A stretch of 64,000 nucleotides of DNA from Gammaproteobacteria bacterium (GTDB lineage Bacteria; Pseudomonadota; Gammaproteobacteria; JAABTG01): assembly GCA_017999615.1 (NCBI GenBank), contig JAGNLM010000010.1, forward strand, positions 1 through 64,000. Reading direction: 5' to 3'. Below the pieces are notes generated by a model that searched no databases, was not told where the DNA came from, and saw only the letters and a program-made list of their open reading frames with translations. Numbering within the stretch: position 1 is the first letter of the stretch; each line of letters begins with the position of its first letter. Below are positions 31,329 through 62,291 of the stretch, piece by piece. The translations under genes were made by a program, and so were the position numbers.

Positions 31329-32663
31329 ATGCTGACCGAGAACTGGAACGACGTCGGGACCGGGTTCCACCCGGTGAGCGCTCCGGACTACCTCCCGCTG
31401 CCCCAGCTGCACGAGCTGCAGCTCCGAAGGCTGAGGGCGGTGGTCTCCCGGGCTTACGAGAACGTTCCCTTCTACCTCAGCCGCATGGAGGAGCGCGCTG
31501 TCTCGCCTGCTTCGCTCGACACGCTGAGCGATCTGGGCCGACTCCCCTTCACGGTCAAGACGGACCTGAGGGACCACTATCCCTTCGGGCTCTTCGCCAG
31601 CCCCATGGGCGAGGTGGTGCGGCTGCACGCCTCGAGCGGGACGACGGGCAAGCCCATCGTCGTGGCCTACACCGAGGAGGACATCGCGGTCTGGACCGAG
31701 GCGATGGTCAGGGCGTTTGCCTGCTACGGCCTGCACCGCGGCGACATCGTCCAGAACTCCTACGGTTACGGCCTGTTCACCGGCGGACTGGGCGCCCACT
31801 ACGGCGCCGAGGCCCTGGGCGCCACCGTGGTCCCGGCCTCCGGCGGCAACACCGACCGGCAGATCATGCTGCTGCGCGACTTCGGGGTGACCGCGATCTG
31901 CTGCACCCCGAGCTACTTCACTCACATGATCGAGCGCGCCGCCGAGCTCGGTGTCGACATGAAGGCACTGCCCCTGCGGGTCGGCGTGTTCGGCGCCGAG
32001 CCCTGGAGCGACGGGATGCGCACGCACATCGAGCGTGCCGCGGGAATCACCGCGTTCGACATCTACGGCCTGTCCGAGATCGTTGGGCCGGGCGTCGCGG
32101 CGGAGTGCCGCGAGCAGAACGGGCTGCACGTCTTCGAGGACCACTTCTATCCGGAGATCATCGACCCCGAGACCGGCGCGGTGCTCCCCGACGGGGCCGA
32201 AGGCGAGCTCGTGCTGACGACGCTCTCGAAGAAGGCGATGCCGCTGATCCGCTATCGCACGCGCGACATCACGGCGCTGATCCCGGAGAGATGCGCCTGC
32301 GGGCGCACCATCCGCCGCATCCGCCGGATCGGCCGGCGTAGCGACGACATGTTCATCATCCGCGGCGTCAACGTCTTCCCCTCGCAGGTCGAGACGGCCC
32401 TGCTCACGGTCGAGGGCACCCTGCCGCACTACCGGATCGTGCTCACGACGGACAAGGGCCTCGACCAGATGGGCGTCGAGGTGGAGGTGAGCGCCGAGGT
32501 GGCGAGCGACCAGGTGAGGGTCATGGAGGACCTGCGCAAGCGCATCGGCCAGGCCATCGAGCGCATCGTGGGGATCCGCGTCGGCGTACGCCTGGTCGAG
32601 CCCCACTCCATCCCGCGCAGCGAGGGCAAGGCCAAGCGGGTGGTCGACCAGCGGGCCAAGTAG
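31329..32663 (+). CDS. paaK: phenylacetate--CoA ligase, copy 1
   Basis: 444 residues. Adenylate-forming signatures: LHASSGTTGKPIVVAYTEED (phosphate loop, about 100-120), YGYGLFTGGLGAHYGAEALG, IYGLSEIVGPGVAAEC, LIRYRTRDITAL and the C-terminal VNVFPSQVETAL hinge with the catalytic lysine in SEGKAKRVVDQR. It activates phenylacetate or a related arylacetate to the CoA thioester with ATP. It follows iorB by 19 bases and is followed by an ACT-domain gene. Confidence 0.95.
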   Translation: MLTENWNDVGTGFHPVSAPDYLPLPQLHELQLRRLRAVVSRAYENVPFYLSRMEERAVSPASLDTLSDLGRLPFTVKTDLRDHYPFGLFASPMGEVVRLHASSGTTGKPIVVAYTEEDIAVWTEAMVRAFACYGLHRGDIVQNSYGYGLFTGGLGAHYGAEALGATVVPASGGNTDRQIMLLRDFGVTAICCTPSYFTHMIERAAELGVDMKALPLRVGVFGAEPWSDGMRTHIERAAGITAFDIYGLSEIVGPGVAAECREQNGLHVFEDHFYPEIIDPETGAVLPDGAEGELVLTTLSKKAMPLIRYRTRDITALIPERCACGRTIRRIRRIGRRSDDMFIIRGVNVFPSQVETALLTVEGTLPHYRIVLTTDKGLDQMGVEVEVSAEVASDQVRVMEDLRKRIGQAIERIVGIRVGVRLVEPHSIPRSEGKAKRVVDQRAK

Positions 32664-32733
32664 GCGCCAGGCGCCACGGGCCCACGGGCCCACAAGCAAG
32701 CACGAGGATGGCAACATCGGGGCTTCGAAACCC

Positions 32734-33174
32734 ATGAAACTGACCCAGATCTCGATCTTCCTGGAAAACCGCCCGGGGCGCCTTCGCGCACCGTGCCAGA
32801 TACTGGCCGACCGGGGCATCAACATCCTGACGCTGTCCCTCGCCGACACCCAGCAGTTCGGCATCCTGCGGCTCATCGTGCGCGAGCCCGCGCGCGCCAA
32901 GGCCGCGCTCGAAGAGGCAGGCTACGTCGTCCACCTGAGCGATGTCGTCGCCCTCGAGGTACGGGACCGTCCCGGGGGACTCGCCGAGGTGTTGGCCCAC
33001 GTGGACGAAGGCGGCCTGAACGTCGAGTACATGTACGCGTTCACCTTCGGCCGAGGAGACCGGGCGGTGCTGATCTTCCGCTTCGAGAACGCCGACCGCG
33101 CTGCCGCCCTCCTTCAGTCCAAGGGCGTCAACGTCCTCGGCGAGGTCGAGTTGTTCGAGCGCGGCGCGTCCTGA
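32734..33174 (+). CDS. tandem ACT-domain protein, paired with paaK copy 1
   Basis: 146 residues in two ACT units: KLTQISIFLENRPGRLRAPCQILADRGINI and VVALEVRDRPGGLAEVLAHVDEGGLNVEYMYAF. ACT domains bind amino acids. Small two-ACT proteins frequently lie beside phenylacetate-CoA ligase genes and are thought to sense aromatic amino acids. A homologue (142 residues) sits beside paaK copy 2 at 39.1 kb, which makes the association firm in this genome. Confidence 0.9.
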   Translation: MKLTQISIFLENRPGRLRAPCQILADRGINILTLSLADTQQFGILRLIVREPARAKAALEEAGYVVHLSDVVALEVRDRPGGLAEVLAHVDEGGLNVEYMYAFTFGRGDRAVLIFRFENADRAAALLQSKGVNVLGEVELFERGAS

Positions 33175-33294: not shown

Positions 33295-35514
33295 ATGTAC
33301 GAGACGTACTACAGCCTTTCCGCCGACCCCTTCCGGCTCAGTCCCGACCCGCGGTTCTGCTTCGAGCACCCGAGCTTCTCCCGCGCCCGGAAGTACATGC
33401 AGTACGCCCTGCGGCGCGCCGAGGGCTTCATCATGGTCACGGGCCGGCCGGGAACCGGCAAGACCACACTCGTCGAGAGCCTGCTGACGGGGCTCTCGGG
33501 CAACGGGCCGGTCGCGGCGCGTCTCGTGACCGCCCAGTTGGGGCCCGACGAGCTCCTGCGCAAGGTGGCCTACGCCTTCGGGCTCCATGTCGCGGGGCTC
33601 GACAAGGCCACCATGCTCCTGCATCTCGAGCGCTTCCTGATTCAGCAGGCACGCACCGGCCGCGGCGCCCTGCTGGTCATCGACGAGGCTCAGGGGCTGA
33701 ACGCATCCTCCCTGGAGGAGTTGCGCCTGCTCACCAACCTGCAGGAGAACGCTCGGCCGATCCTCCAGATCTTCCTCGTGGGGCAGGAGGAGTTGCGGGA
33801 CATCGTGCAGCGGCCCGAGCTCGAGCAGTTCCACCAGCGGCTCATCGCGGCGTGCCACCTGCGGCCTCTCGACCTCGAGGAGACACGGGCCTATGTGGAG
33901 CACCGGCTGCGGCGCGTGGGGTGGCGCGGGGACCCTCGCATCACCTCCGACGCCTTCGAACTGGTGCACCGGTTCAGCGCCGGCGTCCCCCGCCGGATCA
34001 ACCAGGTTTGCAGCCGGTTGCTCCTGCACGGCGCGGCGGAAGACCGTCACCGCCTGGACGGGAACGACGCCCTGGCGGTCATCGAGGACCTGCGCGCCGA
34101 GCTCCTGGCGCCCGCCGAGGTGGCGGAACCGGAAGAGCTTCGGGACCTGCTGGCATCCCTTCCCAAGGAGCCCGAGCCGCCCCCGAGCGAGCTCCCTCCA
34201 GCGCCCAGGCCGGAACCTGTAAGCCCGCAGCCTGCCTCCGCCCCCCCAGCCCCTCGCGCGGGGGGCTCGCTGGCCATCCCCGGGACCGAAGCGGACGTCG
34301 AGCCCGAGCCTGCGGCACCGCAGCCCCAGAGGGCGCCGCGTACCGCCCCACCGCCCGCCGCGAGAGCCGCAGGCGGGCCCCAGGCGGCCGCCCCGTCCCC
34401 TACCGGTCAGCCGCGGCCGGTGCCGCCGGCGCCCCCCCCCGTTCCCTCCGTTGGGGCGGCCCCGCCGCGTGCCGTAGCCCGGGAGCGGGACGCGTGGATG
34501 GCCACACCGATCCCCACCCCGCCGGAGCCGGCGAGCACCCCTGTGCCCCGGGAGCGCCCCCGCCGCCGATTCGCGGCCCGGGTGCTCGCGCTGTTACTGG
34601 TCGGTCTCGCCGCCGTTCCGTTGCTGCTCGCCCTTTCCCCGGAGCTCGCTGGCAGACTCCAGACGCAGGTGAGCGAGTGGTTGGCCGCTCTCCCCGTCTT
34701 GCGGAGCCCCGCCCCACCCTCGACCAGCGGTTCCGTCGCCCGCCGGTCAGGACCCGAAGAGGTGACATCACCGCGGGCCGAGGGGACCTCGAAGGGCGTG
34801 GAGACGAAGACAGAGCCCACACCCACGGCAGCGACCGCATTGCCGGCGAGCACACCTCTACCCCCCGCTCCGCAGGCCCCGCGCGAGGTCCGTGCAGTGG
34901 CTCGCGAAGCCTCCGACGAGATACCGGCCAGCGCCTCTCCGGCGCTGCCCCCGGCCCCTGCGGCAGAGGAGCCGACCCCGCCGACAGGGGAAGGCGTCCC
35001 CTCGCCTCGCTCCGGCCCCTCTCCTCTGCCGGAGCCCTCGTCGCAAATCGTCCAGACCGAGCAGTCATCGGGCCCGGCGCCCGACACGGCCAACGCCGAG
35101 CACGAGCTCGCGGGCCTCGGCGTCAGCGTGCGGCTGCTCCCGGATGGAACCGTACACGTGAACCTGCGCCGTCAGGTCCCCTTCGACACCAACTCTGCTG
35201 AAGTCCGCCCCGAGTCCCGGCCATTCCTCGACCGACTGGCCGAGGTCCTGAGCCGGCTGGAGGGGTTCGTCGTCCGGGTGGTCGGCCACACCGACGACTC
35301 GGGTCCCCGGGACTACAACGCCCAACTCTCGCGCAGGCGCGCCGAGGCGGTGGCCGCCTATCTGCGCCAGCAGGGCGTTCCAGGCGAGCGACTGCGGGCC
35401 GAGGGACGCAGCGCCGTCGAGCCGAGCCCAGAGCTGCACGGAGTGGCCGACGGCGGGGCCGACCGCCGACGCATCGACCTCCTCATCCAACGGAGCGCCA
35501 ACGGCCGGGCCTGA
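33295..35514 (+). CDS. ExeA-type AAA ATPase fused to an OmpA peptidoglycan-binding domain
   Basis: 739 residues. 1-270: ExeA/GspA-like AAA ATPase (MYETYYSLSADPFRLSPDPR, Walker A GRPGTGKTTLVESL at about 50-63, Walker B LLVIDEAQGL near 125, sensor IFLVGQEELRDI). About 275-425: Pro/Ala-rich linker. About 428-448: one membrane segment (ARVLALLLVGLAAVPLLLAL). About 450-605: second Pro-rich linker. About 615-735: OmpA-C domain (FDTNSAEVRPESRPFLDRLA, VVGHTDDSGPRDYNAQLSRR, RRIDLLIQ). Usual ExeA relatives end in PG_binding_1. It should couple cytosolic ATPase work to the murein layer. Confidence 0.9.
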   Translation: MYETYYSLSADPFRLSPDPRFCFEHPSFSRARKYMQYALRRAEGFIMVTGRPGTGKTTLVESLLTGLSGNGPVAARLVTAQLGPDELLRKVAYAFGLHVAGLDKATMLLHLERFLIQQARTGRGALLVIDEAQGLNASSLEELRLLTNLQENARPILQIFLVGQEELRDIVQRPELEQFHQRLIAACHLRPLDLEETRAYVEHRLRRVGWRGDPRITSDAFELVHRFSAGVPRRINQVCSRLLLHGAAEDRHRLDGNDALAVIEDLRAELLAPAEVAEPEELRDLLASLPKEPEPPPSELPPAPRPEPVSPQPASAPPAPRAGGSLAIPGTEADVEPEPAAPQPQRAPRTAPPPAARAAGGPQAAAPSPTGQPRPVPPAPPPVPSVGAAPPRAVARERDAWMATPIPTPPEPASTPVPRERPRRRFAARVLALLLVGLAAVPLLLALSPELAGRLQTQVSEWLAALPVLRSPAPPSTSGSVARRSGPEEVTSPRAEGTSKGVETKTEPTPTAATALPASTPLPPAPQAPREVRAVAREASDEIPASASPALPPAPAAEEPTPPTGEGVPSPRSGPSPLPEPSSQIVQTEQSSGPAPDTANAEHELAGLGVSVRLLPDGTVHVNLRRQVPFDTNSAEVRPESRPFLDRLAEVLSRLEGFVVRVVGHTDDSGPRDYNAQLSRRRAEAVAAYLRQQGVPGERLRAEGRSAVEPSPELHGVADGGADRRRIDLLIQRSANGRA

Positions 35515-35730
35515 GGCTGAGGCGTTCTCCAGCCGGCGGCACCGCGCCCGAGGGTCCGGGGACGCCCTGGGGGGCCTCCCGAGTTTTTCCCTGCCCACGG
35601 GCTACGCGTGGGGGCTCGAGTCGGTCATACTTCGATGTTTTCCGGAACCAAGGCCCCTCACCCATCGCCCGGGCCGGCAGCACCCCCTTCGGGAAAGTCC
35701 GTGCTGACGGGTCCAAAGACAGGGATGGTC

Positions 35731-36168
35731 ATGAAACCCATGCGTGCAACCCGGAGAGTCCTGACAGCGGCGCTGTGCCTGGGCGCACTCTCCGCCCCAG
35801 CGGATAACGGCCGCGACCTTGCAGGGCAGTGCCAACAGGCCCTGCGGCTGAACGTCCTCGGTGTCGAGGGCCTCGACATCGACTCCATCATCGAGGGCGT
35901 GTACTGCGTCGCGTACATCGGTGGCCTGCTCGATGGCCTGATCGTCGCCGAGGAGGACATCGAGCCCCGGGCGGCCCGCGCCCGCCCCACCATCTGTCTG
36001 CCGCCCACCGGACTGGACATGGCCCAGGCCGTCCGCCTCGTGATGGCGTGGCTCGAGGAACACCCGGAGGGGCTGAGCGAGCCCGCCCGCGTCGTAGTGC
36101 ACCGGGCACTCGCCGAGTCCTTTCCCTGCTCGACGCGGAGCGGTCCCGTCCCCAGGAAGAAGCGCTGA
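35731..36168 (+). CDS. Rap1a/Tai-like small exported protein
   Basis: 145 residues from the ATG at 35731 (AGGGA 5 bases upstream) with a short signal peptide (VLTAALCLGALSAPA). The mature part has the Rap1a/Tai spacing: CQQAL...YCVAYIGGLLDGLIV, TICLPPTGLDMAQAVRLVMAWLEEHPEGL and the closing ALAESFPC, with four cysteines likely forming two disulfides. Founding members are periplasmic immunity proteins against type VI effectors, but many relatives are orphans and no effector is near this gene. Confidence 0.75.
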   Translation: MKPMRATRRVLTAALCLGALSAPADNGRDLAGQCQQALRLNVLGVEGLDIDSIIEGVYCVAYIGGLLDGLIVAEEDIEPRAARARPTICLPPTGLDMAQAVRLVMAWLEEHPEGLSEPARVVVHRALAESFPCSTRSGPVPRKKR

Positions 36169-36269
36169 GCCGCGCTGAGCCGCGCGGCCACTCTGTGCAG
36201 TTTTGCATTTTGTTCACTAGAATCTTCTCAGAGCTCGAGTCCCCGAGCCTGCGACAGGAGAGTCAAACC

Positions 36270-36689
36270 GTGGCAAAAGTGGCCCCCAAAACAAAAAAGA
36301 AACCCGCGAAGTCTCCCGTGAGCCGCAAAGCCGCTCCGGTGAAGAAGGCCGCGCCCAAGGCGAAGGCCGCGGCTGTTTCCAAGCCGATGACCAAGGCCCA
36401 GATCTACAACGCGATCACCGAGCGCGTCGGCCTCGCCAAGAAAGACGTGGCGGCCGTGATGTCGGAGCTGCAGGCGCTCATCGAGGGTCACCTGGCGAAG
36501 AAGGGCCCGGGCCAGTTCACGCTTCCCGGGCTCCTGAAGTTGACCCGCGCCAAGAAGCCCGCCACCAAGGCGCGCATGGGGCGCAACCCGCGCACCGGCG
36601 AAGCGATGGAGATCCCCTCCCGACCCGCCCGCACCACGATTCGCCTGCGGGCCCTGAAGGGGCTGAAAGGGATGATCGAGGGCAGCTAG
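36270..36689 (+). CDS. HU-family DNA-binding protein with basic N-terminal tail
   Basis: 139 residues from a GTG start behind GACAGGAGAG. Residues 1-40 are a Lys/Ala/Pro tail resembling histone H1 tails (KKKPAKSPVSRKAAPVKKAA). Residues 41-139 are an HU/IHF fold: MTKAQIYNAITERVGLAKKD, VMSELQALIEGHLAKKGPGQ, FTLPGLLKLTRAKKPATKAR and GRNPRTGEAMEIPSRPART. It probably compacts DNA. A TAGAAT -10-like box lies at 36218-36223. The gene ends at a strong bidirectional terminator. Confidence 0.9.
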   Translation: MAKVAPKTKKKPAKSPVSRKAAPVKKAAPKAKAAAVSKPMTKAQIYNAITERVGLAKKDVAAVMSELQALIEGHLAKKGPGQFTLPGLLKLTRAKKPATKARMGRNPRTGEAMEIPSRPARTTIRLRALKGLKGMIEGS

Positions 36690-39583: not shown

Positions 39584-40876
39584 CTAGAGTTTTCGGTTGT
39601 CGACGACGCGCTTGGCCTTGCCCTCGCTCACCGGCAAGGATCCGGGCGCTACCAGCTCGATCTTGGGCCTCACCATGATCTCGGCGCGCAGCTTCTCGCC
39701 GATCTGGTCCTGCAGCCTCACCAGATGCTCGAGCTGCCCGTCGAAGGTGGCGCCCGACAGCTCCACCTGGACGATCATCTCGTCGAGTCCTTCCAGCCGG
39801 ATCAGATAATTCCGGCCGACTTCGGGGAAGCGCATGAGAACCCGCTCCACCTGCTGCGGATAGACGTTCGCGCCCCGGATGATCAACATGTCGTCGGAGC
39901 GTCCGGTGATGCGCCGGATGCGGGCGTGGGTGCGGCCGCACGCGCACGGCGTCCGATCGATGGAGGTGATGTCCCGAGTGCGGTAGCGCAGGATGGGCAT
40001 CGCCTCGCGCGCGAGCGAGGTGAGGACCATCTCCCCGGTCTCCCCATCGGGCAGGGGCTCGCCCGTCTTGGGGTCGATCACCTCCACCAGATAGTTGTCC
40101 TCCCAGATGTGCATGCCGTCGCGCTCGGAGCACTCGAAGGCCACCCCCGGGCCGTTCATCTCGGAAAGGCCGTAGGAGTTGAACACCGTGATCCCGAGGG
40201 CCTCCTCGATCTTCTGGCGGGTCTCCTCCGTGTAGGGCTCGGCGCCGATGAGCCCGGTGCGCAAGCGCAGGTCCTTGCGCGGGTCGATCCCCTTGCGCTC
40301 GAGGAAATCCGCGAAGTAGAGCGCGTAGCTCGGGGTGGTGTGGATGACGGTGCTGCCGAAATCCTGCATCAACATCAACTGGCGCTCGGAGTTGCCGGGC
40401 CCCGCCGGGATGACGAGCAGCCCCACCTTCTCCGCGCCGTAGTGCATGACCAGGGCCCCGGTGAAGAGGCCGTAGGTCATCATGTTCTGCAGCACGTCGT
40501 GCTGGGACGCCCCCGTCATGACCAGGCAGCGGGCGGTCAGCTCCGCTGCCTGATCCACGTCCTTGCGAGAGAAGAAGAGCGCCTTCGGCTTGCCGGTGGT
40601 GCCGCTCGAGGTGTGCAGGCGCACGACCTGTTCGGGTCCCTTGACCAGCAGCCCGGCGGGGTAGTTCGCGCGCAGGTCGGCGTTCGTCGTGAACGGCAAG
40701 CGCCGCAGGTCTGCGAGCGTCCTGACGGAGGCGGGATCGAGCCCCATCTCCCGGAACCGGGCCTGATAGAAGGGGACGTGCTCACCCACCCGCCGCACGG
40801 TGCGGAGCAGGCGGGCGAGCTGCAACGCCTCCAGCTCGGGCCTCGGTAACGTCTCGACTTCCCGATCCCAGAACAT
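39584..40876 (-). CDS. paaK: phenylacetate--CoA ligase, copy 2
   Basis: 430 residues. LHTSSGTTGKPKALFFSRKD, MTYGLFTGALVMHYGAEKVG, SYGLSEMNGPGVAFEC, ILRYRTRDITSI, RGANVYPQQVERVL and the lysine tail SEGKAKRVVDNRKL. It is clearly homologous to copy 1 but diverged throughout, so it is an old paralogue likely with a different arylacetate preference. A model Shine-Dalgarno (GAAGGAGATCGC) precedes the ATG. The gene lies 10 bases after the porin gene in the transporter operon. Confidence 0.95.
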   Translation of the reverse strand: MFWDREVETLPRPELEALQLARLLRTVRRVGEHVPFYQARFREMGLDPASVRTLADLRRLPFTTNADLRANYPAGLLVKGPEQVVRLHTSSGTTGKPKALFFSRKDVDQAAELTARCLVMTGASQHDVLQNMMTYGLFTGALVMHYGAEKVGLLVIPAGPGNSERQLMLMQDFGSTVIHTTPSYALYFADFLERKGIDPRKDLRLRTGLIGAEPYTEETRQKIEEALGITVFNSYGLSEMNGPGVAFECSERDGMHIWEDNYLVEVIDPKTGEPLPDGETGEMVLTSLAREAMPILRYRTRDITSIDRTPCACGRTHARIRRITGRSDDMLIIRGANVYPQQVERVLMRFPEVGRNYLIRLEGLDEMIVQVELSGATFDGQLEHLVRLQDQIGEKLRAEIMVRPKIELVAPGSLPVSEGKAKRVVDNRKL

Positions 40877-54096: not shown

Positions 54097-56181
54097 CTAG
54101 CGCAGGGTGACGCTCGCCGCGTCGCTGCGTCCGTCGGAATCGACCACGCTGACCCGCACGCTCCCAGTCCGCAGCGGTTGCCACAACACCTCCCGCTCCT
54201 GACCCTGCGCCACCGGACGGCCGTCCACCAGCCAGACGAGGGGACGCCGCCCGCCCTCGGCCATCAGGGTCACCGGAGCGATCGCCCCCCCCTCCTCGGC
54301 AACGTCCAGGCGGATGCCGGGTTGCGGAAACACCAGCCGCAGGTGGTGCGCATCGGGCAGGTCGAGCCCCCCGCCGGGGGCGCGGGCCTCCAGACGGCGC
54401 AGCAGGGGCGCCGTCGCGCCCGACGGGCCGGCGACCCCCGTCGGGGCACCCGGGTCGGAGGGCAGGAGGTCGAAGACCTCGTAGAGGAGCGGCAGCGCGG
54501 CTGTGCGGCCGGTCTGCTCGGGGATGGGCGTCCCATCGGGGCGCCCGACCCACACGCCAACCGTATACCGCTCGCCGACGCCAAACGCCCAGGCGTCACG
54601 ATACCCGTAGCTCGTCCCCGTCTTGACCGCGAGGGGTGCCCGCGTGCGCCGGTCCGCAGCCTGCACCCAGCCCGGCGCGGGCGCGGCCTCGCGCAGGATG
54701 TCGCGCACCCGGCGCGCCGATTCGGGCGAGAGGAGCCTGCCACCCCCCGGCGGCGGGCGTTCCGCCCCGGCCCGCAGCGGCACCACCTCGCCGTCCCGCG
54801 CAAGCCCTGCGTAGAGTGCCGTGAGGTCCTCCAGGGTCATCCCCACGCCCCCCAGGGCGAGGGGCAGGCCGGGAGGCGCGCCCCGCCCTGCCCCTCGCCC
54901 TGCCGGAAAGTGGAGTGAGACCCCGGTGCGGGCCAGCGCCGTGGCAAACCGGGCCGGGCCCAGGCGGTCCAGGACCAGCACGGCGGGCACGTTCAGCGAG
55001 CGCAGGAGCGCGTCCCGCACGGTGAGCTCACCGTGGAACGCGGAGTCGAAGTTGGCGGGGCTGTAGTCCCGGAAACGGGTGGAGACGTCGGACACGAGCG
55101 TGCGAGGCTCGACGATCCCTTCGTCGAAGGCGAGCCCGTAGAGGAAAGGCTTCAGGGCGGAGCCCGGGGAACGGACCGCGCGCGTCATGTCGACGGCCCC
55201 GCGGCGCCGGACGTCGAAGTAGTCGGCCCCGCCGACCGAGGCCATGACGTGGGCGTCCCGATGATCCGCCACGAGGAGCGCGACGCTGCCCGCGGACACC
55301 AGGGACGCGGTGGCGCGGGCTGCGAGGCCCTCCAGGGCCCGCTGCAGCCGCGCGTCGACCGGGGTGCGCACGACCGGCGTCCCCGGGCTCTCGCCGCGCA
55401 GCCGCTCTGCGAGGTGCGGGGCGAGAAACGGCCACGGCACCCGGCCCACGGGTACGGGCTCGGCACCCGCCTCGGCCACCGTCCGCACGTCCACGACTCC
55501 GGCGGCCAACCCCCGCCCGAGGGCCCTCTCCCGGGCCCGCGCCGCGGCCTCCGGATGCCGGTCGGGGCGCAGGAGCGCAGGGGAACGGGGCAGCGCGACC
55601 AGCAACGCGGCCTCGCCGGCGGTGAGGGCACGGGGCTCCTTGCCGAGGTAGGCGAGGGACGCGGCCCGCAGGCCCTCCAGGTTGCCGCCGAAGGGGGCGA
55701 GCGTGAGGTACATCTCGAGGATCCGGGCCTTGTCGTAACGGGCCTCCAGTTGCAGCGCCCGCAGGGCCTCGAGGAGCTTGCTCGCCAGCGTCCGGGGGCG
55801 GGGCTCCAGCAGCCTCGCGAGCTGCATGGTCAGGGTCGAGGCCCCGGAGACGGTGCGTCCCGCCGCGAGGTTCTCCGCGACGGCCCGGGCGACGGCGACC
55901 GGGTCCACGCCCGGGTGGGCTTCGAAGCGCCGGTCCTCGACCGCCACGAGCAGCGCCAGGTAGAGCGGAGCGACGTCGTCCAACGTCACCGGCAGGCGCC
56001 AGAAGCCGTCCCGCGTGGTGAAGAAGCGCAGGGGAGCACCCGTGCGGTCGACGACCGCGGTGGAGAGGTCCTCCAGCCGCCCGAGCGGCGGGGGGAAGAA
56101 CCGATCGAGCAGGACGACGCAGACCACCGGGACCGCCAGCGCGGCGGCCCCGAGCAGTGCCCGGCGCAGGGACCGCTTCAC
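54097..56181 (-). CDS. pbpC: penicillin-binding protein 1C
   Basis: 694 residues from the GTG at 56181, which places the membrane anchor (LLGAAALAVPVVCVVLLDRF) at the N-terminus. Glycosyltransferase domain: VAVEDRRFEAHPGVDPVAVARA, SGASTLTMQLARLL, KILEMYLTLAPFGGNLEG-type motif (here RILEMYLTLAPFGGNLEG). Transpeptidase: SPGSALKP (SxxK, about 338), SLNVP (SxN) and KTGTSYGYRDAW (KTG, about 520). The C-terminal BiPBP_C beta domain is present (LVWLVDGRPVAQGQ). It builds peptidoglycan at the inner membrane and follows the macroglobulin gene by 70 bases, as in E. coli. Confidence 0.95.
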   Translation of the reverse strand: MKRSLRRALLGAAALAVPVVCVVLLDRFFPPPLGRLEDLSTAVVDRTGAPLRFFTTRDGFWRLPVTLDDVAPLYLALLVAVEDRRFEAHPGVDPVAVARAVAENLAAGRTVSGASTLTMQLARLLEPRPRTLASKLLEALRALQLEARYDKARILEMYLTLAPFGGNLEGLRAASLAYLGKEPRALTAGEAALLVALPRSPALLRPDRHPEAAARARERALGRGLAAGVVDVRTVAEAGAEPVPVGRVPWPFLAPHLAERLRGESPGTPVVRTPVDARLQRALEGLAARATASLVSAGSVALLVADHRDAHVMASVGGADYFDVRRRGAVDMTRAVRSPGSALKPFLYGLAFDEGIVEPRTLVSDVSTRFRDYSPANFDSAFHGELTVRDALLRSLNVPAVLVLDRLGPARFATALARTGVSLHFPAGRGAGRGAPPGLPLALGGVGMTLEDLTALYAGLARDGEVVPLRAGAERPPPGGGRLLSPESARRVRDILREAAPAPGWVQAADRRTRAPLAVKTGTSYGYRDAWAFGVGERYTVGVWVGRPDGTPIPEQTGRTAALPLLYEVFDLLPSDPGAPTGVAGPSGATAPLLRRLEARAPGGGLDLPDAHHLRLVFPQPGIRLDVAEEGGAIAPVTLMAEGGRRPLVWLVDGRPVAQGQEREVLWQPLRTGSVRVSVVDSDGRSDAASVTLR

Positions 56182-56251
56182 GGACTTCCCGGGGTCCCCC
56201 GGCAGGACCGAGGCAAGGGCTCTGCGGGGGCCTGCGCCCGGCTCCGCGCCC

Positions 56252-59200
56252 TCACTCCGCCGGCCCCACCGTGACCCGGTGCACCGCCTGACGGGCGAAG
56301 AACCTCGGGCGGTACATGTCCTCCAGCTGGGCACCCGGCAGCTCGTAGCTCCCCGGCGTAACGGCCCGGACCAGATACGCCACCCGGAACGACGGTTGCT
56401 CCGGGGTCAGCTCGAAGGCGGCCACGTAGCGGTCGTCGCGGCCCTCCAGCGCCGTGGGCGTCGACAGTTCCCGGAGCCAGGGCAGCACCGCCCCCCCGTC
56501 CCCGGAGAGGCGCACGGTCTCGATCTCCCAGCCGGCGGGCAGCCCGTGGGTCAGCAGCGCCCGATGGTGCAGTCCGGTCGCCGCCTCCCCCTCGACCTCG
56601 ACGACGAACACGTCGTTCTGGCGGATACGGTCCAGGTCGAGCGGCTGTCCCTCGCGGGTGAAGAAGTGGCGGCGCACGGCCATCCCCTCCCGGGCTGCGG
56701 GCCGCGGCTCGACTGGCACACCCGTGCGTGTCACCGCCTCCCAGACCTCGCCCGGACCTACATTCGTCACCTTGAGGCCTGCCGCGACCTGGGCGGCCGA
56801 AGGGGCCACCAGGACCGGGTCTCCGGAGGTCAGCGCCACCCCGTCGGCCTTCAGGGAGAGCGGACCTTTGCCCGCCATCAGGGCGGCGGCGGCCCGGACC
56901 ACCCAGGCCTGTTCCTGCGTGCTGAGGCGCCCTGCCTCCAGCGCGCTCGCCGGCAGACGGTCGAGCAGCCGGGGCAGCGCGTCGCCGAGGAGGTCCACCT
57001 CCGCAAGCACGCTGAGCATGGCCGCCGCATCCCGCACGACCGAGCCGTAGTCGACCGGCCAATCGTCGCGGACCAGGTTCCCGGTCGCCGCGGCCGCCGC
57101 GGCCCCCGCGCGCTCCCGGTCGCCGAGCCGGGCCAGCGCCGCCGCGAGTTGCGCCCGCGCCAGGGGGCTCGGCAGCTTCGCCAGGAGGGCATCGTGGAGA
57201 TAGCGCGCCGGCCCCGGGGTCGCCACTCCGCCCAGTGCGAGAACGTGGACGGCGTAGGCCCGGCTCACCAGGTCCTCCTTCTCCGTCCCGCCGTCCACCG
57301 CGTGCCGGCGCAGCCAATCGAGGGCCGCCTTGTAGGGGCCCTCCGCCACCGGCCGACCGGCCGCCCGCGCACGCGCGAGAAATTCCGTCGCGTACGCGGT
57401 CAGCCAGGCAGACTCTTCGCCGTAGGCGCTCCAGACCCCGAACGCGCCGTCATAGCGCTGCTTGTCCAGGACCTGGCCGACGGCGGCGTCGACCCGGGCG
57501 TCCCGCGTCTCGGCGGTCATCAACGCACCCGTGGACTGGAGCCCCGCGCTCCCCACGAGGGGCAGCGCCCGGCTCACGACCTGCTCGAGGCAGCCGTAGG
57601 GGTAGCGCTCCAGCGCGGCCAGGATCCCCGCCACGTCGAAAGGCGCCCGTGAGGCGTACGTCAGCCTCACGCTGCCGGTGCCCGGGACGTAGCCCGCCAG
57701 GTCCGCGGCGCCCGTCTCGGTAGCGGCACCCGGGGGCAGGCGGCGCTGCGTGAAGGTGGTCTCCACGGCGCGCGACGGTCTGACGGTGATGGAGAGCTGC
57801 CGCCGCAGGCGGACCCCCCCCGGGCCCTCCAGCGCCACGCTGAGGGAGCCCGTCCCGGCCGCAGCACCCCGCAGCGTCGCCGGCACGCTCACGCGGGCAT
57901 CGCGCGCAAGCTCCACCTCGGCAGGCACGTCGCCGACCGTCACCGCGCCCGAAGCCGTCACCGACAGGCGGTAGACGCCGGGAGGGGCCTCGACATTGTG
58001 CAGGGACAGGGTGGCCCGGCTCTCGTCACCCGGGGCGAGGAATCGGGGCAGCGTGAGTTGGGCCACCAGCGGCCCGCGCACCGGCAGGGCGGCCGCGGAG
58101 CCACCGACCCGGCGCGCGTCGTAAGCGACCGCCATGAGCCGCAGTTCACCGTCGAACTCCGGCACCTCGAGGGGAATGCGGGCCACGCCGTCCGCGCCGA
58201 CCGGCACGGGCCCCCGGAACAGCGACACGATGGTGAGCGGCACCACCGGAAGGCTCGCACCGAGCCCTCCCTGGTCCCCGCCCTGGCGCAGCGTCCCCAC
58301 CGGCCCGGAGATGGCGCTGATCAGCCGCCCGTAGTCGTCGAGCACGTCGACGCCGAGCAGTCGCTTGCCGAGATAGTGGCCAGCCGGGTCGGGCGAGGTG
58401 AAGCCGGTGAGCCGCAGGATCCCTTCGTCGACGGCCGCCAGGGTCACCCAGGCGCCCGTGGCCGGCTTGCCGTCAGCGGCGGTCACCCGGACCGGCACCT
58501 CCACCCGCTCCCCGGGCCTCGCGACGGCAGGGGCATCCAGACGAACCGCCAGCGTGCGCGGCGCCGGGTCGAGACCGAGCCAGGCGACACCGATGGCCCG
58601 CACCGGCACGCGTTCCCGGTCTGCGACGGGAGAGCGAATCACGGTGGCGAGCACGTACGCCCCGGCACCCCAATCCGCGCCGACCGGCACCTCGAAGGTC
58701 GCCCCCCCGGCGGGGACGGAGTGCTGCTGCACCTCCCGCACGCGGTCCGTCGCGACGGTCAACTGCAGTTCGCCGGCGAACGGCGGCACGACGCGCACGC
58801 GCGCCCGGTCCCCGGGGGCGTAAGCCGCGCGGTCGAGCGTCACCTCCACCCGGTCGGGGGTTTCCCCCGCATCCAGCGCGACCTGCCAGCCGACGCTGAA
58901 GCGCACGGAGGAGGCCACGCCGGTGGCCTCGTCGGAGACCTCGAGCCGGTAGCGGCCGTATTCCAGCGGCCCGAAGGAGGGTGTCCCGAAGCGCTCGGCC
59001 GTGAGATCCAGACTCCCCCGGCGCAGGCTCTCCGCCTGCACGGAGGTGCGATAGGTGTAGCGTCCTTCGTCCTGGTACCAGAGGAACCGGACCCGCTCGC
59101 GGAAGAGCTCCGTCCGGAGGCCAGGACGCGAGACTCTCTTGCCGTCCGGACCGACGGCCACGACCTCGAAGGCTGCCGGATGCCCCTCCTCCACCCGGTC

Positions 59201-61483
59201 GCCGCTGAACTGGGGGCGGATCCCGATGGCGAAGGGCTGGGTGCGCAGGGGAACCGTCAGCGTCTGGCGGGACGGGCGGCCGCCCGGCTCGGCCAGGTCG
59301 ACGCGGAACAGGGCGCGCAGGGGCCGGGTGGTGTCCGGGAGCGCGGGCAACTTGACCTCGACGCGCGTGGCACCGCTCGCATCGGTGGCCGGGAGGCTGA
59401 GGGACTCGGTGCGGGGGGTCGGGGACTCCTGGACGAGACCGAAACGGAACCCCTTGAACGCGGAAAATGGCTCGGGGTCCAGGGCCACGGAGACCTCGGC
59501 GGTTCCGGAGAGACCCGCGGCGGGAGGACCGTACAGGAAGCGCGCCCGCACCAGGAGATCGAAGGGCCGCGCCGGGTCGATGGCCGGTGAGGAGCCCTCG
59601 ACCTCGACCGCCAGCCGCTCGGGCACGAACTCCTCCACCTGCACGCGCAAGGCGCCGACCGGGTCCGACTTCGGGTCTGCGAGGGCCTGCACAGTCCAAG
59701 TCCCGAGGGGGGCCGTGGCGGTCAGATAGAGCGGCAGGACGTGGGCGCCGGCCGCGCTGGACTGCACCACCCCGGAGCGGAAGACGGTTCCGTTGGGGCG
59801 CAGCACCCGCAGGGTGAGAGGGAAGCCTTCGACCGCGTCGCCCCGGTCGTCCCGCAGCAGCACCGTGAGGTTCACTCGCTCGCCCGGGCGATAGACGCCC
59901 CGGTCGGAGTACAGGTACGCGTCGAGGGGTCCGGGTGCTCGACGGCCGCCCACGCCGCGGTCGCTCAGGTCGAGTGCGGGCCGCCCGAGGTTCAGGACCG
60001 CGAAATCCCCTTCGGCGCCGTAGGCCACGACGAGCAGGGGCTCGTTGCCGCCGCCAGCCCCGGAGGGTGGGAAGTGCACGCGCCCGTCGGCGTCGCTCGT
60101 CGCCCGCCCCAACTCGGCGTTGTTGCGGGCCAGCAGTGCGACACTGGCCCCCGGCACCGGCTTTGCGCTGGCGAGCGAGCGGACGAAGACGTCCACCCCG
60201 TCGGGCCCGCGCAGCGTGCTCAGCCCGAGGTCCGTGACCACGAGCCACTGGGTCGCCGGCGTGCTCTGGATCTCGCTCTCCGGCAGGTCCGCGGGCATCG
60301 CGGTGAGCACGTAGAGCCCGGGTTTCGGTTTGGGAATCAACTGGCGCACGGGGACGGCCGTCACCACCGAGACATTGCGCTCCAGGCGCACCGCCATCCG
60401 CCCTTCCCACAGCCGCTCGCCCTGCGACTCGGCGATCTGGTCCGCTTCGTAGCCTTCCAGGCTGCCGAGTGCCCCCTCCCCCATGCGCGCCACCAAGTTG
60501 CGGTCGTTGATGCGATGGACCCGCAGCGTCACGGCGTCCGTATTCACGGTGACCAGGGGGATACCATCTGGCCCGCCGCGCGGCAGGATGAAGGCGTTCC
60601 CCCGGAAGGCCGCAAGGGGCGGACGGTCGCCGATCGCGACCTCGCGGGTCTCGGTGCGCTTGAGCACCAGCCCGTCGGCACTCGCAAGCCCCTCGCGCAA
60701 CGCCACCCGATAGCGGTGCGCGTGCGCGAGCCCACCGAGGCAGAGCTCACGGCCTGCGGCGTCCACGCTGACCGGGGTCGCGGGCTCGACTCGCACGTAT
60801 TCGTCCCAGCGCGTGCCGCGGGCCTGCTTCAGAGGATTGGAGAGGACCAGGCAGACGCGCGGCTCCTCGCCGTCGGCCTCGACGCGAACACGAACCCACT
60901 CGACTCCGACCTTCTGGCGCAACGCCTCCAGCCGCTCCCCGAGACCCGGCGCCGTGCTCCCCTCCGCCCGCAGGGCCCGCAGGGCACCCAGAGCCTCGCG
61001 GGGCTGGTCGAGCCGGGTTTCGAACAACTCTGCCATGCGCTCGAGGGCGCGCTGGCGGTCCGCCGTGTCCCCCGCCGCCCGATAGGCCAGCCACGCCGCC
61101 TGCAACGCCCGGTCGGCGTCCGGACGCGGCAGGGAGAGCCACGCCTCGCTCAACTGCAGGAACACGGACGGGGCCTCGCGGCCCAGGGTGACGGCAACCT
61201 CCAGTTGTGGGAGCGCCGCCTCGACCCGATTCGCCGCGAGGGCCTGCGCCGCCGCCTTGAGCGCTGCGTCGGCTGCCGCCGGGGATGGCTGCGCCGGACG
61301 CTTCGCCACCAGCGCCGCGCGGTAGCGCCCCGCCGCGGCCGCCAGTCCCGCCGGCTCGAAGCGAGCGTCCTCCGTCTCCGCCCCGCTCTCCGTATCCTCG
61401 GTCTGAGCCAGGGCAGTCGGGGTTGCCAGGGGCAGGGAGACCAGCACCGCAACGAAGGTCAGCCAGAAGCGAGGGGGGGTCAT
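56252..61483 (-). CDS. bacterial alpha-2-macroglobulin
   Basis: 1743 residues with a signal peptide (FWLTFVAVLVSLPLATPTALA). About 30-250: helical repeat-like region (QALAANRVEAALPQLEVAVTLGRE). Then macroglobulin domains including PLDAYLYSDRGVYRPGERVN (about 520) and WVTLAAVDEGILRLTGF. The thioester site is intact: YGCLEQ with Cys near 1298, in the alpha-alpha toroid that follows the bait region. It traps foreign proteases in the periplasm. Co-operon with pbpC suggests a defence-and-repair pair guarding the cell wall. No conventional lipobox is seen, so anchoring is unclear. Confidence 0.94.
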   Translation of the reverse strand: MTPPRFWLTFVAVLVSLPLATPTALAQTEDTESGAETEDARFEPAGLAAAAGRYRAALVAKRPAQPSPAAADAALKAAAQALAANRVEAALPQLEVAVTLGREAPSVFLQLSEAWLSLPRPDADRALQAAWLAYRAAGDTADRQRALERMAELFETRLDQPREALGALRALRAEGSTAPGLGERLEALRQKVGVEWVRVRVEADGEEPRVCLVLSNPLKQARGTRWDEYVRVEPATPVSVDAAGRELCLGGLAHAHRYRVALREGLASADGLVLKRTETREVAIGDRPPLAAFRGNAFILPRGGPDGIPLVTVNTDAVTLRVHRINDRNLVARMGEGALGSLEGYEADQIAESQGERLWEGRMAVRLERNVSVVTAVPVRQLIPKPKPGLYVLTAMPADLPESEIQSTPATQWLVVTDLGLSTLRGPDGVDVFVRSLASAKPVPGASVALLARNNAELGRATSDADGRVHFPPSGAGGGNEPLLVVAYGAEGDFAVLNLGRPALDLSDRGVGGRRAPGPLDAYLYSDRGVYRPGERVNLTVLLRDDRGDAVEGFPLTLRVLRPNGTVFRSGVVQSSAAGAHVLPLYLTATAPLGTWTVQALADPKSDPVGALRVQVEEFVPERLAVEVEGSSPAIDPARPFDLLVRARFLYGPPAAGLSGTAEVSVALDPEPFSAFKGFRFGLVQESPTPRTESLSLPATDASGATRVEVKLPALPDTTRPLRALFRVDLAEPGGRPSRQTLTVPLRTQPFAIGIRPQFSGDRVEEGHPAAFEVVAVGPDGKRVSRPGLRTELFRERVRFLWYQDEGRYTYRTSVQAESLRRGSLDLTAERFGTPSFGPLEYGRYRLEVSDEATGVASSVRFSVGWQVALDAGETPDRVEVTLDRAAYAPGDRARVRVVPPFAGELQLTVATDRVREVQQHSVPAGGATFEVPVGADWGAGAYVLATVIRSPVADRERVPVRAIGVAWLGLDPAPRTLAVRLDAPAVARPGERVEVPVRVTAADGKPATGAWVTLAAVDEGILRLTGFTSPDPAGHYLGKRLLGVDVLDDYGRLISAISGPVGTLRQGGDQGGLGASLPVVPLTIVSLFRGPVPVGADGVARIPLEVPEFDGELRLMAVAYDARRVGGSAAALPVRGPLVAQLTLPRFLAPGDESRATLSLHNVEAPPGVYRLSVTASGAVTVGDVPAEVELARDARVSVPATLRGAAAGTGSLSVALEGPGGVRLRRQLSITVRPSRAVETTFTQRRLPPGAATETGAADLAGYVPGTGSVRLTYASRAPFDVAGILAALERYPYGCLEQVVSRALPLVGSAGLQSTGALMTAETRDARVDAAVGQVLDKQRYDGAFGVWSAYGEESAWLTAYATEFLARARAAGRPVAEGPYKAALDWLRRHAVDGGTEKEDLVSRAYAVHVLALGGVATPGPARYLHDALLAKLPSPLARAQLAAALARLGDRERAGAAAAAATGNLVRDDWPVDYGSVVRDAAAMLSVLAEVDLLGDALPRLLDRLPASALEAGRLSTQEQAWVVRAAAALMAGKGPLSLKADGVALTSGDPVLVAPSAAQVAAGLKVTNVGPGEVWEAVTRTGVPVEPRPAAREGMAVRRHFFTREGQPLDLDRIRQNDVFVVEVEGEAATGLHHRALLTHGLPAGWEIETVRLSGDGGAVLPWLRELSTPTALEGRDDRYVAAFELTPEQPSFRVAYLVRAVTPGSYELPGAQLEDMYRPRFFARQAVHRVTVGPAE

Positions 61484-61760
61484 GGGGCACATCCTGGTGA
61501 AGGAGCTGATGACGGGCGAGCCCACCTGGAGGGGGTCACGAAGGGGACCGCAAAGGAGTGTTGTCCCTCGGCGGGCCAGAAACAAGGTCCGCCAGGCGGC
61601 GAGCGCGAGCCGCGGTTCTCTCGCAAGGACGGTCGCGGTTTTCTCGGAACGACGTCGCTCGTGGCATGCTATGGGCAACGGCCGTTCCCCCGGGAGACCG
61701 GGAGAGCGGAGGACGGAGACCGGGACTGGGACGGCACACCTTCGCCGCGAGAGCGACACC

Positions 61761-62291
61761 ATGGGCAACTCCCTGCAGGAGCAGTTGTTGAAGGCCGGCT
61801 TGGTGAGCGCGCACCAGGCCCGCCAGACCCGAACCGAAAAGCGCAAGCAGGACCGCCAGCCCTCTCGCGGCACGGGGGACGCCGAGCGGCTCGCCGCCCA
61901 GAGGGCGCAGGCGGAAAAGGCCGAGCGCGACCGGGAACTGAATCGCCGGCGAGAGGAAGCGGCGCGGCGCAAGGCCGTGGCCGCGGAGGTCGCGGAGATG
62001 ATCCGGACCCACGCTCTGCCCCGCGCCCAGGGAGAAACGGCCTACCACTTCGTCGACGGGAAGCTGGTGAAACGGATCTACGTCACCGCCGACCAGCACC
62101 GCCAACTCACGGCCGGTCAGCTCGCGCTGGCTCGCCTGGGGCAGCGCTATGAACTGGTTCCGCTCGCCGTTGCGGAGAAGATCCGCTCCCGGGACGAGCG
62201 CTTCGTCGTCCCCCCGACCACCCCGGGCAACACGGAGCCCGAGGACGACGCCTACGCGGCGTACCGGGTGCCCGACGACCTCATGTGGTAG
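61761..62291 (+). CDS. DUF2058 family protein
   Basis: 176 residues: MGNSLQEQLLKAGLVSAHQA, then a long charged coiled coil (about 20-75, RQTRTEKRKQDRQ and AEKAERDRELNRRREEAARRK), and a compact C-terminal part (YHFVDGKLVKRIYVTADQHRQLTAGQLALARL...YELVPLAVAEKI). This is the DUF2058/YaiL pattern, a nucleoprotein-associated family found almost only in Gammaproteobacteria. Cytoplasmic. Divergent from the macroglobulin gene (277-base gap in which I see no clear promoter). Confidence 0.92.
   Translation: MGNSLQEQLLKAGLVSAHQARQTRTEKRKQDRQPSRGTGDAERLAAQRAQAEKAERDRELNRRREEAARRKAVAAEVAEMIRTHALPRAQGETAYHFVDGKLVKRIYVTADQHRQLTAGQLALARLGQRYELVPLAVAEKIRSRDERFVVPPTTPGNTEPEDDAYAAYRVPDDLMW

Follow-up and report, generated by a model that had tools for sequence, protein, structure and literature searches.

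A rare gammaproteobacterial protein joining an XrtA-ATPase-like AAA+ domain, a membrane helix and an OmpA-C domain

Results

Layout of the gene and its product

The window analysed here is a stretch of 64,000 nt from Gammaproteobacteria bacterium (JAABTG01; assembly GCA_017999615.1, contig JAGNLM010000010.1, positions 1-64,000, forward strand). The gene under study runs unbroken for 739 codons as one ORF, with an ATG start and an in-frame stop just three codons 5' of it. Its features are as follows.

33295..35514, + strand: AAA+ ATPase, membrane helix and OmpA-C fusion gene, 739 aa (ORF, Pfam, orthologues, selection test)
33295..34101, + strand: AAA+ domain, residues 1-269, XrtA-ATPase-like, with an initiator-clade fold (ORC/Cdc6, TnsC, MuB) (TIGR03015 317.7 bits, predicted structure)
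33442..33468, + strand: Walker A GRPGTGKTT, residues 50-58 (G, G and K kept in 16/16 rows of alignment A1)
33670..33693, + strand: Walker B LLVIDEAQ, residues 126-133 (DEAQ invariant in alignment A1)
34102..34548, + strand: predicted cytosolic Pro-rich linker, residues 270-418, 31% Pro (disorder predicted from about residue 297; dN/dS 0.46)
34561..34635, + strand: single membrane helix, residues 423-447, preceded by the basic stretch RERPRRR (hydrophobicity, predicted structure)
34639..34686, + strand: amphipathic helix right behind the membrane segment, residues 449-464 (predicted structure)
34690..35094, + strand: predicted periplasmic Pro-rich linker, residues 466-600 (predicted mostly disordered; dN/dS 0.68)
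35095..35511, + strand: OmpA-C domain, residues ~601-739, YiaD/PA0833-like, with D667 and R682 (Pfam, structure match, dN/dS 0.14)

Pfam places AAA_22 at residues 42-170 (E 8e-23, above the curated cut-off) and OmpA (PF00691) at residues 630-710 (E 3e-17; 63.1 bits vs a cut-off of 27.2), and gives no match to PF01471 (PG_binding_1) in the protein, OmpA standing in its place. The lid motif of the ATPase, GVPRRIN, occupies residues 230-236. The original prediction, made from the DNA letters, had described one protein with a single membrane segment and two Pro-rich linkers, and this description is supported: the ORF is uninterrupted and the fusion is kept in orthologues, a single hydrophobic helix is predicted, with basic residues on its N-terminal side, and the second linker contains 20% Pro across residues 446-600. 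An AlphaFold2 model likewise gives two confident globular ends (pLDDT ~90), together with the membrane helix and disordered linkers, which appear as long low-confidence stretches on both sides of helices 423-447 and 449-464.

The OmpA motifs quoted in the original prediction are present in the C-terminal domain and the murein-binding residues are kept. In Acinetobacter baumannii OmpA the D271/R286 pair, with a spacing of 15, holds diaminopimelate (PMC6572160), and by sequence D667 and R682 of the fusion protein, also 15 apart, are the equivalents of this pair. The last third of the domain (701-725) is divergent and the usual N.T..GR..NRR signature is missing, but the closing strand (726-733) is still predicted. 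On the strength of the D667/R682 pair we predict that the domain binds peptidoglycan, and the parts combined predict a direct connection between cytosol and murein.

Conservation of the fusion

The same fusion is found at full length and 83% identity in a sister species (G001; CALMKJ010000032.1, uncultured Ectothiorhodospiraceae bacterium), as an intact 838-residue version in another genus of the same family (G002), and in five more gammaproteobacterial families. Comparison with the G001 gene reveals no frameshift, all linker indels being in-frame, and dN/dS values of 0.05 for the AAA domain and 0.14 for the OmpA domain, with 0.46 and 0.68 for the linkers. Both end domains are thus under purifying selection whilst the linkers drift, as expected of one protein in which a spacer separates two functional ends.

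Relationship to other ATPases

Among curated models, the one that matches the AAA+ domain best, and along its entire length, is TIGR03015 (XrtA/PEP-CTERM ATPase), with 317.7 bits in hmmscan and 321.2 in the genome search, just under the curated cut-off of 324.5 bits, which the window ATPase does not reach. A profile (A1) built from its relatives (16-row alignment) found 17 loci in 16 of the 369 gammaproteobacterial genomes at 387-449 bits, all other ATPases scoring 371 bits or less, and over 349 Pseudomonadota genomes it found no locus outside Gammaproteobacteria in the 387-449-bit range. The 26 sampled members form one clade in a maximum-likelihood tree (support 100/100), adjoining the XrtA ATPases and far from the ExeA-like (PG_binding_1) and MshM-like proteins; the window ATPase sits within this 26-row sister clade and does not group with the XrtA-locus ATPases. 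Walker A, Walker B and lid motifs are retained throughout the clade, and most members have the typical motif H.SY..A..YL behind PFRLSPD. A PDB search returned no solved structure of the family, the nearest folds to the AAA+ domain being ORC/Cdc6, TnsC, MuB and RuvB. Judged by these comparisons, the window ATPase is nearer to the XrtA/PEP-CTERM exopolysaccharide ATPase than to ExeA and belongs to a distinct sister clade, and so its original assignment to the ExeA/GspA type does not stand in the narrow sense.

C-termini in the wider ATPase family can be NTF2-like (our own reading, without a Pfam match), FHA or other modules. A sister architecture that we found to be common (L072, L078, L071, L073, L082 and L085) joins an XrtA-like ATPase, usually with a predicted TM, to a C-terminal NTF2/SnoaL-like module that has no Pfam match and carries the motif L..F..AYE.GD...L..LF...A..ND...I...Y..LF.

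Paralogues in the same genome

The organism's own genome (G000) encodes further members of the superfamily. The gene at C1:60090, part of an XrtA locus whose exosortase is at C1:62432, specifies a canonical TIGR03015 ATPase (372 bits), and that at C1:685190 a superfamily ATPase 13 kb from the second exosortase. The genome's two secretins are confined to contigs C11 and C3. On C3, G000:C3:154950 encodes an AAA domain, 31% identical to that of the fusion protein, with a weak SPOR match, and lies directly upstream of genes for a non-PilQ secretin and a MSLLLDALKKAE (GspB/MshN-like) protein. With a sigma-54-type regulator, the AAA-SPOR-like ATPase, the secretin and the GspB/MshN-like protein in a row, G000:C3:154950-158269 (L005, L189) is probably an MSHA-type or T2SS-like locus. 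The XrtA and secretin clients of this organism are thus accounted for by other paralogues; the window protein fills neither of these two ATPase roles and is a further, orphan member of the superfamily.

An exchangeable C-terminus

A search by domain architecture, as proposed with the original prediction, found AAA-TM-OmpA proteins in several gammaproteobacterial families, whose gene neighbours we compared. Within the clade an OmpA C-terminus is present in G000, G001, G002, G061, G075, G194, G258 and G336 (two proteins), a TPR-like segment in G202, G258b, G152 and G059, and an uncharacterised domain in G083, G202b and G346, whilst the protein ends soon past the TM in L029, L030, G066, G292, G088, G385 and G199. 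The two AAA-TM-OmpA proteins of G336 (C4 and C25; L110:7491-9908 and L143) occur in one genome with many other superfamily ATPases. Three loci of the same ATPase clade (L083, L132:3465-5834 and L133:6328-9021) have in common an unannotated C-terminal domain with the motif GQW.S.GKPASLLPS.V..C.

The ATPase tree requires six changes of the OmpA label. A tree of OmpA domains, 38 in all and drawn from these and neighbouring genomes, has long branches and allows the fused domains to form one clade (AU p 0.57, with a slightly higher likelihood under the constraint). That each lineage captured OmpA independently and recently is accordingly not favoured, and a single ancient fusion with later swaps and losses would be the simplest reading and fits these sequences better. 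Many clade members are without any murein-binding domain, and in the OmpA domain of G194 GHTD has degenerated to AYSN, so the clade does not depend on binding to the wall. The gene is also accessory, given that the congeners of G061 are without it.

The AAA-TM-OmpA form is rare, at 7 of the 369 sampled gammaproteobacterial genomes, and we found no description of this architecture in the open-access literature; the concern that it might prove a long-known common variant was not realised as such. What is already known is the AAA-TM-peptidoglycan-binding architecture in general (ExeA; AAA-SPOR), and AAA-TM-OmpA is a rare, conserved variant within this kind.

Gene neighbourhoods

The window gene is flanked by IOR/PaaK/ACT genes on one side and by Rap1a-like, HU/IHF-like and Uup genes on the other, and gene order around the fusion is the same in G001. 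As originally stated, no T2SS gene lies among the neighbours examined; nor do any XrtA/EPS genes flank the fusion gene.

Directly 3' of the fusion is a gene for a small Rap1a/Tai-family (PF18602) protein (35608-36168, +), in an order kept in the sister species (L028:10283-10855). The gene at 35829-36689 (+) encodes an HU/IHF-like DNA-binding domain after a Lys/Ala/Pro-rich stretch (KKTKKKPAKSPVSRKAAPVKKAAPKAKAAAV), its true start probably lying downstream of the listed ORF start. Two genes for PaaK-like phenylacetate-CoA ligases (31329-33174 and 39584-40876) fall inside 10 kb, the first accompanied by indolepyruvate oxidoreductase subunits and an ACT-domain pair protein. On the reverse strand (54097-61972, -), a PBP1C-like gene (Transgly, Transpeptidase, BiPBP_C) adjoins that for a 1906-residue bacterial alpha-2-macroglobulin, the classic pbpC-yfhM pair.

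Relatives of the window gene have a different context. L029, from outside the family, encodes a 52% identical ATPase with a TM and without OmpA, and lies in an XrtA operon with the order PrsT, ATPase, PrsK, PrsR, export, chain length and tyrosine kinase. PrsK, PrsR and PrsT are defined as members of the PEP-CTERM/EPS regulon (PMC1569441). The OmpA-fused gene of G061 adjoins a nucleotide-sugar dehydrogenase, PrsK and PrsR, and that of G336 adjoins WcaJ and chain-length and tyrosine kinase homologues, both just below the XrtA cut-offs; in addition, the clade gene of G331 is near PrsK and that of G083 overlaps a TIGR03027 export protein. Clade loci beside XrtA/EPS genes therefore number 5 of 15 (L029, G061, G331, G336 and G083) vs 2 of 20 random control regions (Fisher p 0.11), an enrichment that is suggestive only and too weak to claim. 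Left out of this count were G194 (an NtrC-type regulator just 40% identical to PrsR), G346 (EpsE/Wza-like) and G202b (glycosyltransferases). The original prediction had put no name to the client machine, and this still applies to the window gene's own surroundings, but it no longer applies to the clade, whose members include genes in or beside XrtA/EPS loci.

Two exosortases are encoded in G000 and an exosortase also in G001, G258 and G336, and none was found (PF09721) in the fusion carriers G061, G075, G194 and G002, the last of which is 85% complete. With PF09721 missing from several carriers, a strict dependence on exosortase is rejected. No partner gene was conserved beside all clade members in an all-against-all neighbourhood comparison. 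We also looked upstream for a PrsR-type sigma-54 promoter as a bare GG-N10-GC, which is uninformative in such GC-rich DNA.

Discussion

ExeA, which has a cytosolic ATPase, a TM and a domain that binds murein, works with ExeB to assemble the ExeD secretin, and it is murein binding that drives its multimerisation (PMC4098917). The fusion of an XrtA-like ATPase with a well-understood murein anchor suggests an assembly factor of similar logic, and the AAA+ fold, which resembles that of TnsC/MuB/ORC, was counted for this reading. We tentatively favour, at a little under an even chance, a single-pass trans-envelope AAA+ assembly ATPase, for which a polysaccharide-export complex, or an outer-membrane complex associated with it, is the likeliest client. 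This choice of client follows from sister-clade descent and from the operons of several relatives. The N-terminal AAA+ module would lie in the cytosol and probably form a ring or short filament, whilst the membrane helix and approximately 150 residues of disordered linker would carry the OmpA-C domain on a flexible tether of sufficient length to span the periplasm. If the OmpA-C domain clamps the meso-DAP stems of murein, then assembly powered by ATP on the cytosolic side, together with anchoring in the wall on the far side, may place or hold an envelope complex at a site on the wall, and by ExeA-ExeD logic the anchor would fix where the client complex is inserted. Within this scheme the topology, the binding to murein, the oligomeric state, the client and the direction in which the protein acts are inferred. 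For the reading we also count the architecture, the orthologous fusions in several families, purifying selection at both ends, TIGR03015 as the nearest curated ATPase model, the D667/R682 spacing and the compatibility of the fused OmpA domains with one old origin. Against it count the neighbours of the window gene, which are not EPS genes, the only suggestive EPS enrichment around the clade, the fusion carriers without an exosortase, the accessory nature of the gene, and the clade members that have no murein-binding domain or, as in G194, have lost GHTD.

A broader proposal, which we regard as rather doubtful, is that the clade constitutes a gammaproteobacterial family in its own right, made up of AAA+ assembly ATPases that are anchored in the wall and can exchange their periplasmic module. 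Its OmpA form would directly couple ATP hydrolysis in the cytosol to a grip on murein, so as to build or place polysaccharide-export complexes across the wall.

Other readings need to be weighed against the assembly ATPase. The protein may instead be a trans-envelope tether or sensor, with an AAA+ domain that responds to nucleotide state or to a partner in the cytosol and an OmpA domain that senses contact with the wall, no machine being assembled. The long disordered linkers and the exchange of periplasmic modules (OmpA, TPR-like, unknown or none) would suit such a modular receptor, but the clade-wide retention of Walker A, Walker B and lid motifs suggests that hydrolysis matters, and ExeA, a relative that has been characterised, serves in assembly (PMC4098917); we consider this reading unlikely. 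Ranking after it, and likewise improbable, is a DamX-like envelope factor (AAA-TM-glycan binder) acting in cell division or wall remodelling rather than export. It draws on the AAA-SPOR protein of the same genome, on the clade members that lie among housekeeping genes and on the general envelope linkage that OmpA-C domains often provide. A patchy, accessory distribution fits poorly with a core division role, however, the ATPase clade is sister to EPS ATPases, and no division gene adjoins the window gene.

More improbable again is a secretin-assembly ATPase of the ExeA/GspA or MshM type in which OmpA has replaced PG_binding_1. The predicted overall plan is as in ExeA (PMC4098917) and the genome does have two secretins, but it is the C3 paralogue that lies directly upstream of a non-PilQ secretin gene, the window ATPase is far from the PG_binding_1 group in the tree, and no secretin is near any clade member examined. 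Finally, the artefact against which the original prediction had cautioned, two genes merged by a frameshift or assembly error, is rejected with near certainty, because the same fusion stands in independent assemblies of another species, another genus and five further families, with selection at the codon level acting on both halves and linker indels that keep the reading frame.

The assembly-ATPase reading has practical value, as the fusion yields a short list of genomes and residues (Walker A K56, D667 and R682) for testing, and the exchange of periplasmic modules inside one clade is useful for asking what the module chooses.

Set against known systems, the protein resembles several without coinciding with any of them. 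ExeA/GspA has the plan that is predicted for the fusion protein, a cytosolic AAA ATPase, single TM and periplasmic peptidoglycan-binding domain (PMC4098917). The fusion protein also has the AAA_22 ATPase with Walker A/B that characterises ExeA/GspA, but it differs in domain (OmpA rather than PG_binding_1), in tree position and in gene context, the GspB partner and secretin/T2SS operon of ExeA/GspA both being missing nearby, and on these grounds we reject membership of ExeA. The AAA-SPOR (MshM/DamX-like) ATPases are likewise similar in plan, combining AAA_22 with a C-terminal glycan-strand binder, but have SPOR where the fusion protein has OmpA, and the ATPase of C3:154950 is just 31% identical. 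The TIGR03015 ATPases, a group kept by NCBI as a hypothetical equivalog, are sister in the tree and have an operon context in common with some relatives of the window gene, whereas the canonical members examined are approximately 290-450 residues long and mostly without TM and OmpA. MotB/PomB, TssL and Pal/YiaD have the murein-anchoring OmpA-C fold in common with the fusion protein, whose nearest matches are YiaD and PA0833. In MotB and TssL, wall anchoring is coupled to a motor or secretion machine via separate subunits, and unlike the fusion protein none of these anchors carries an AAA+ ATPase.
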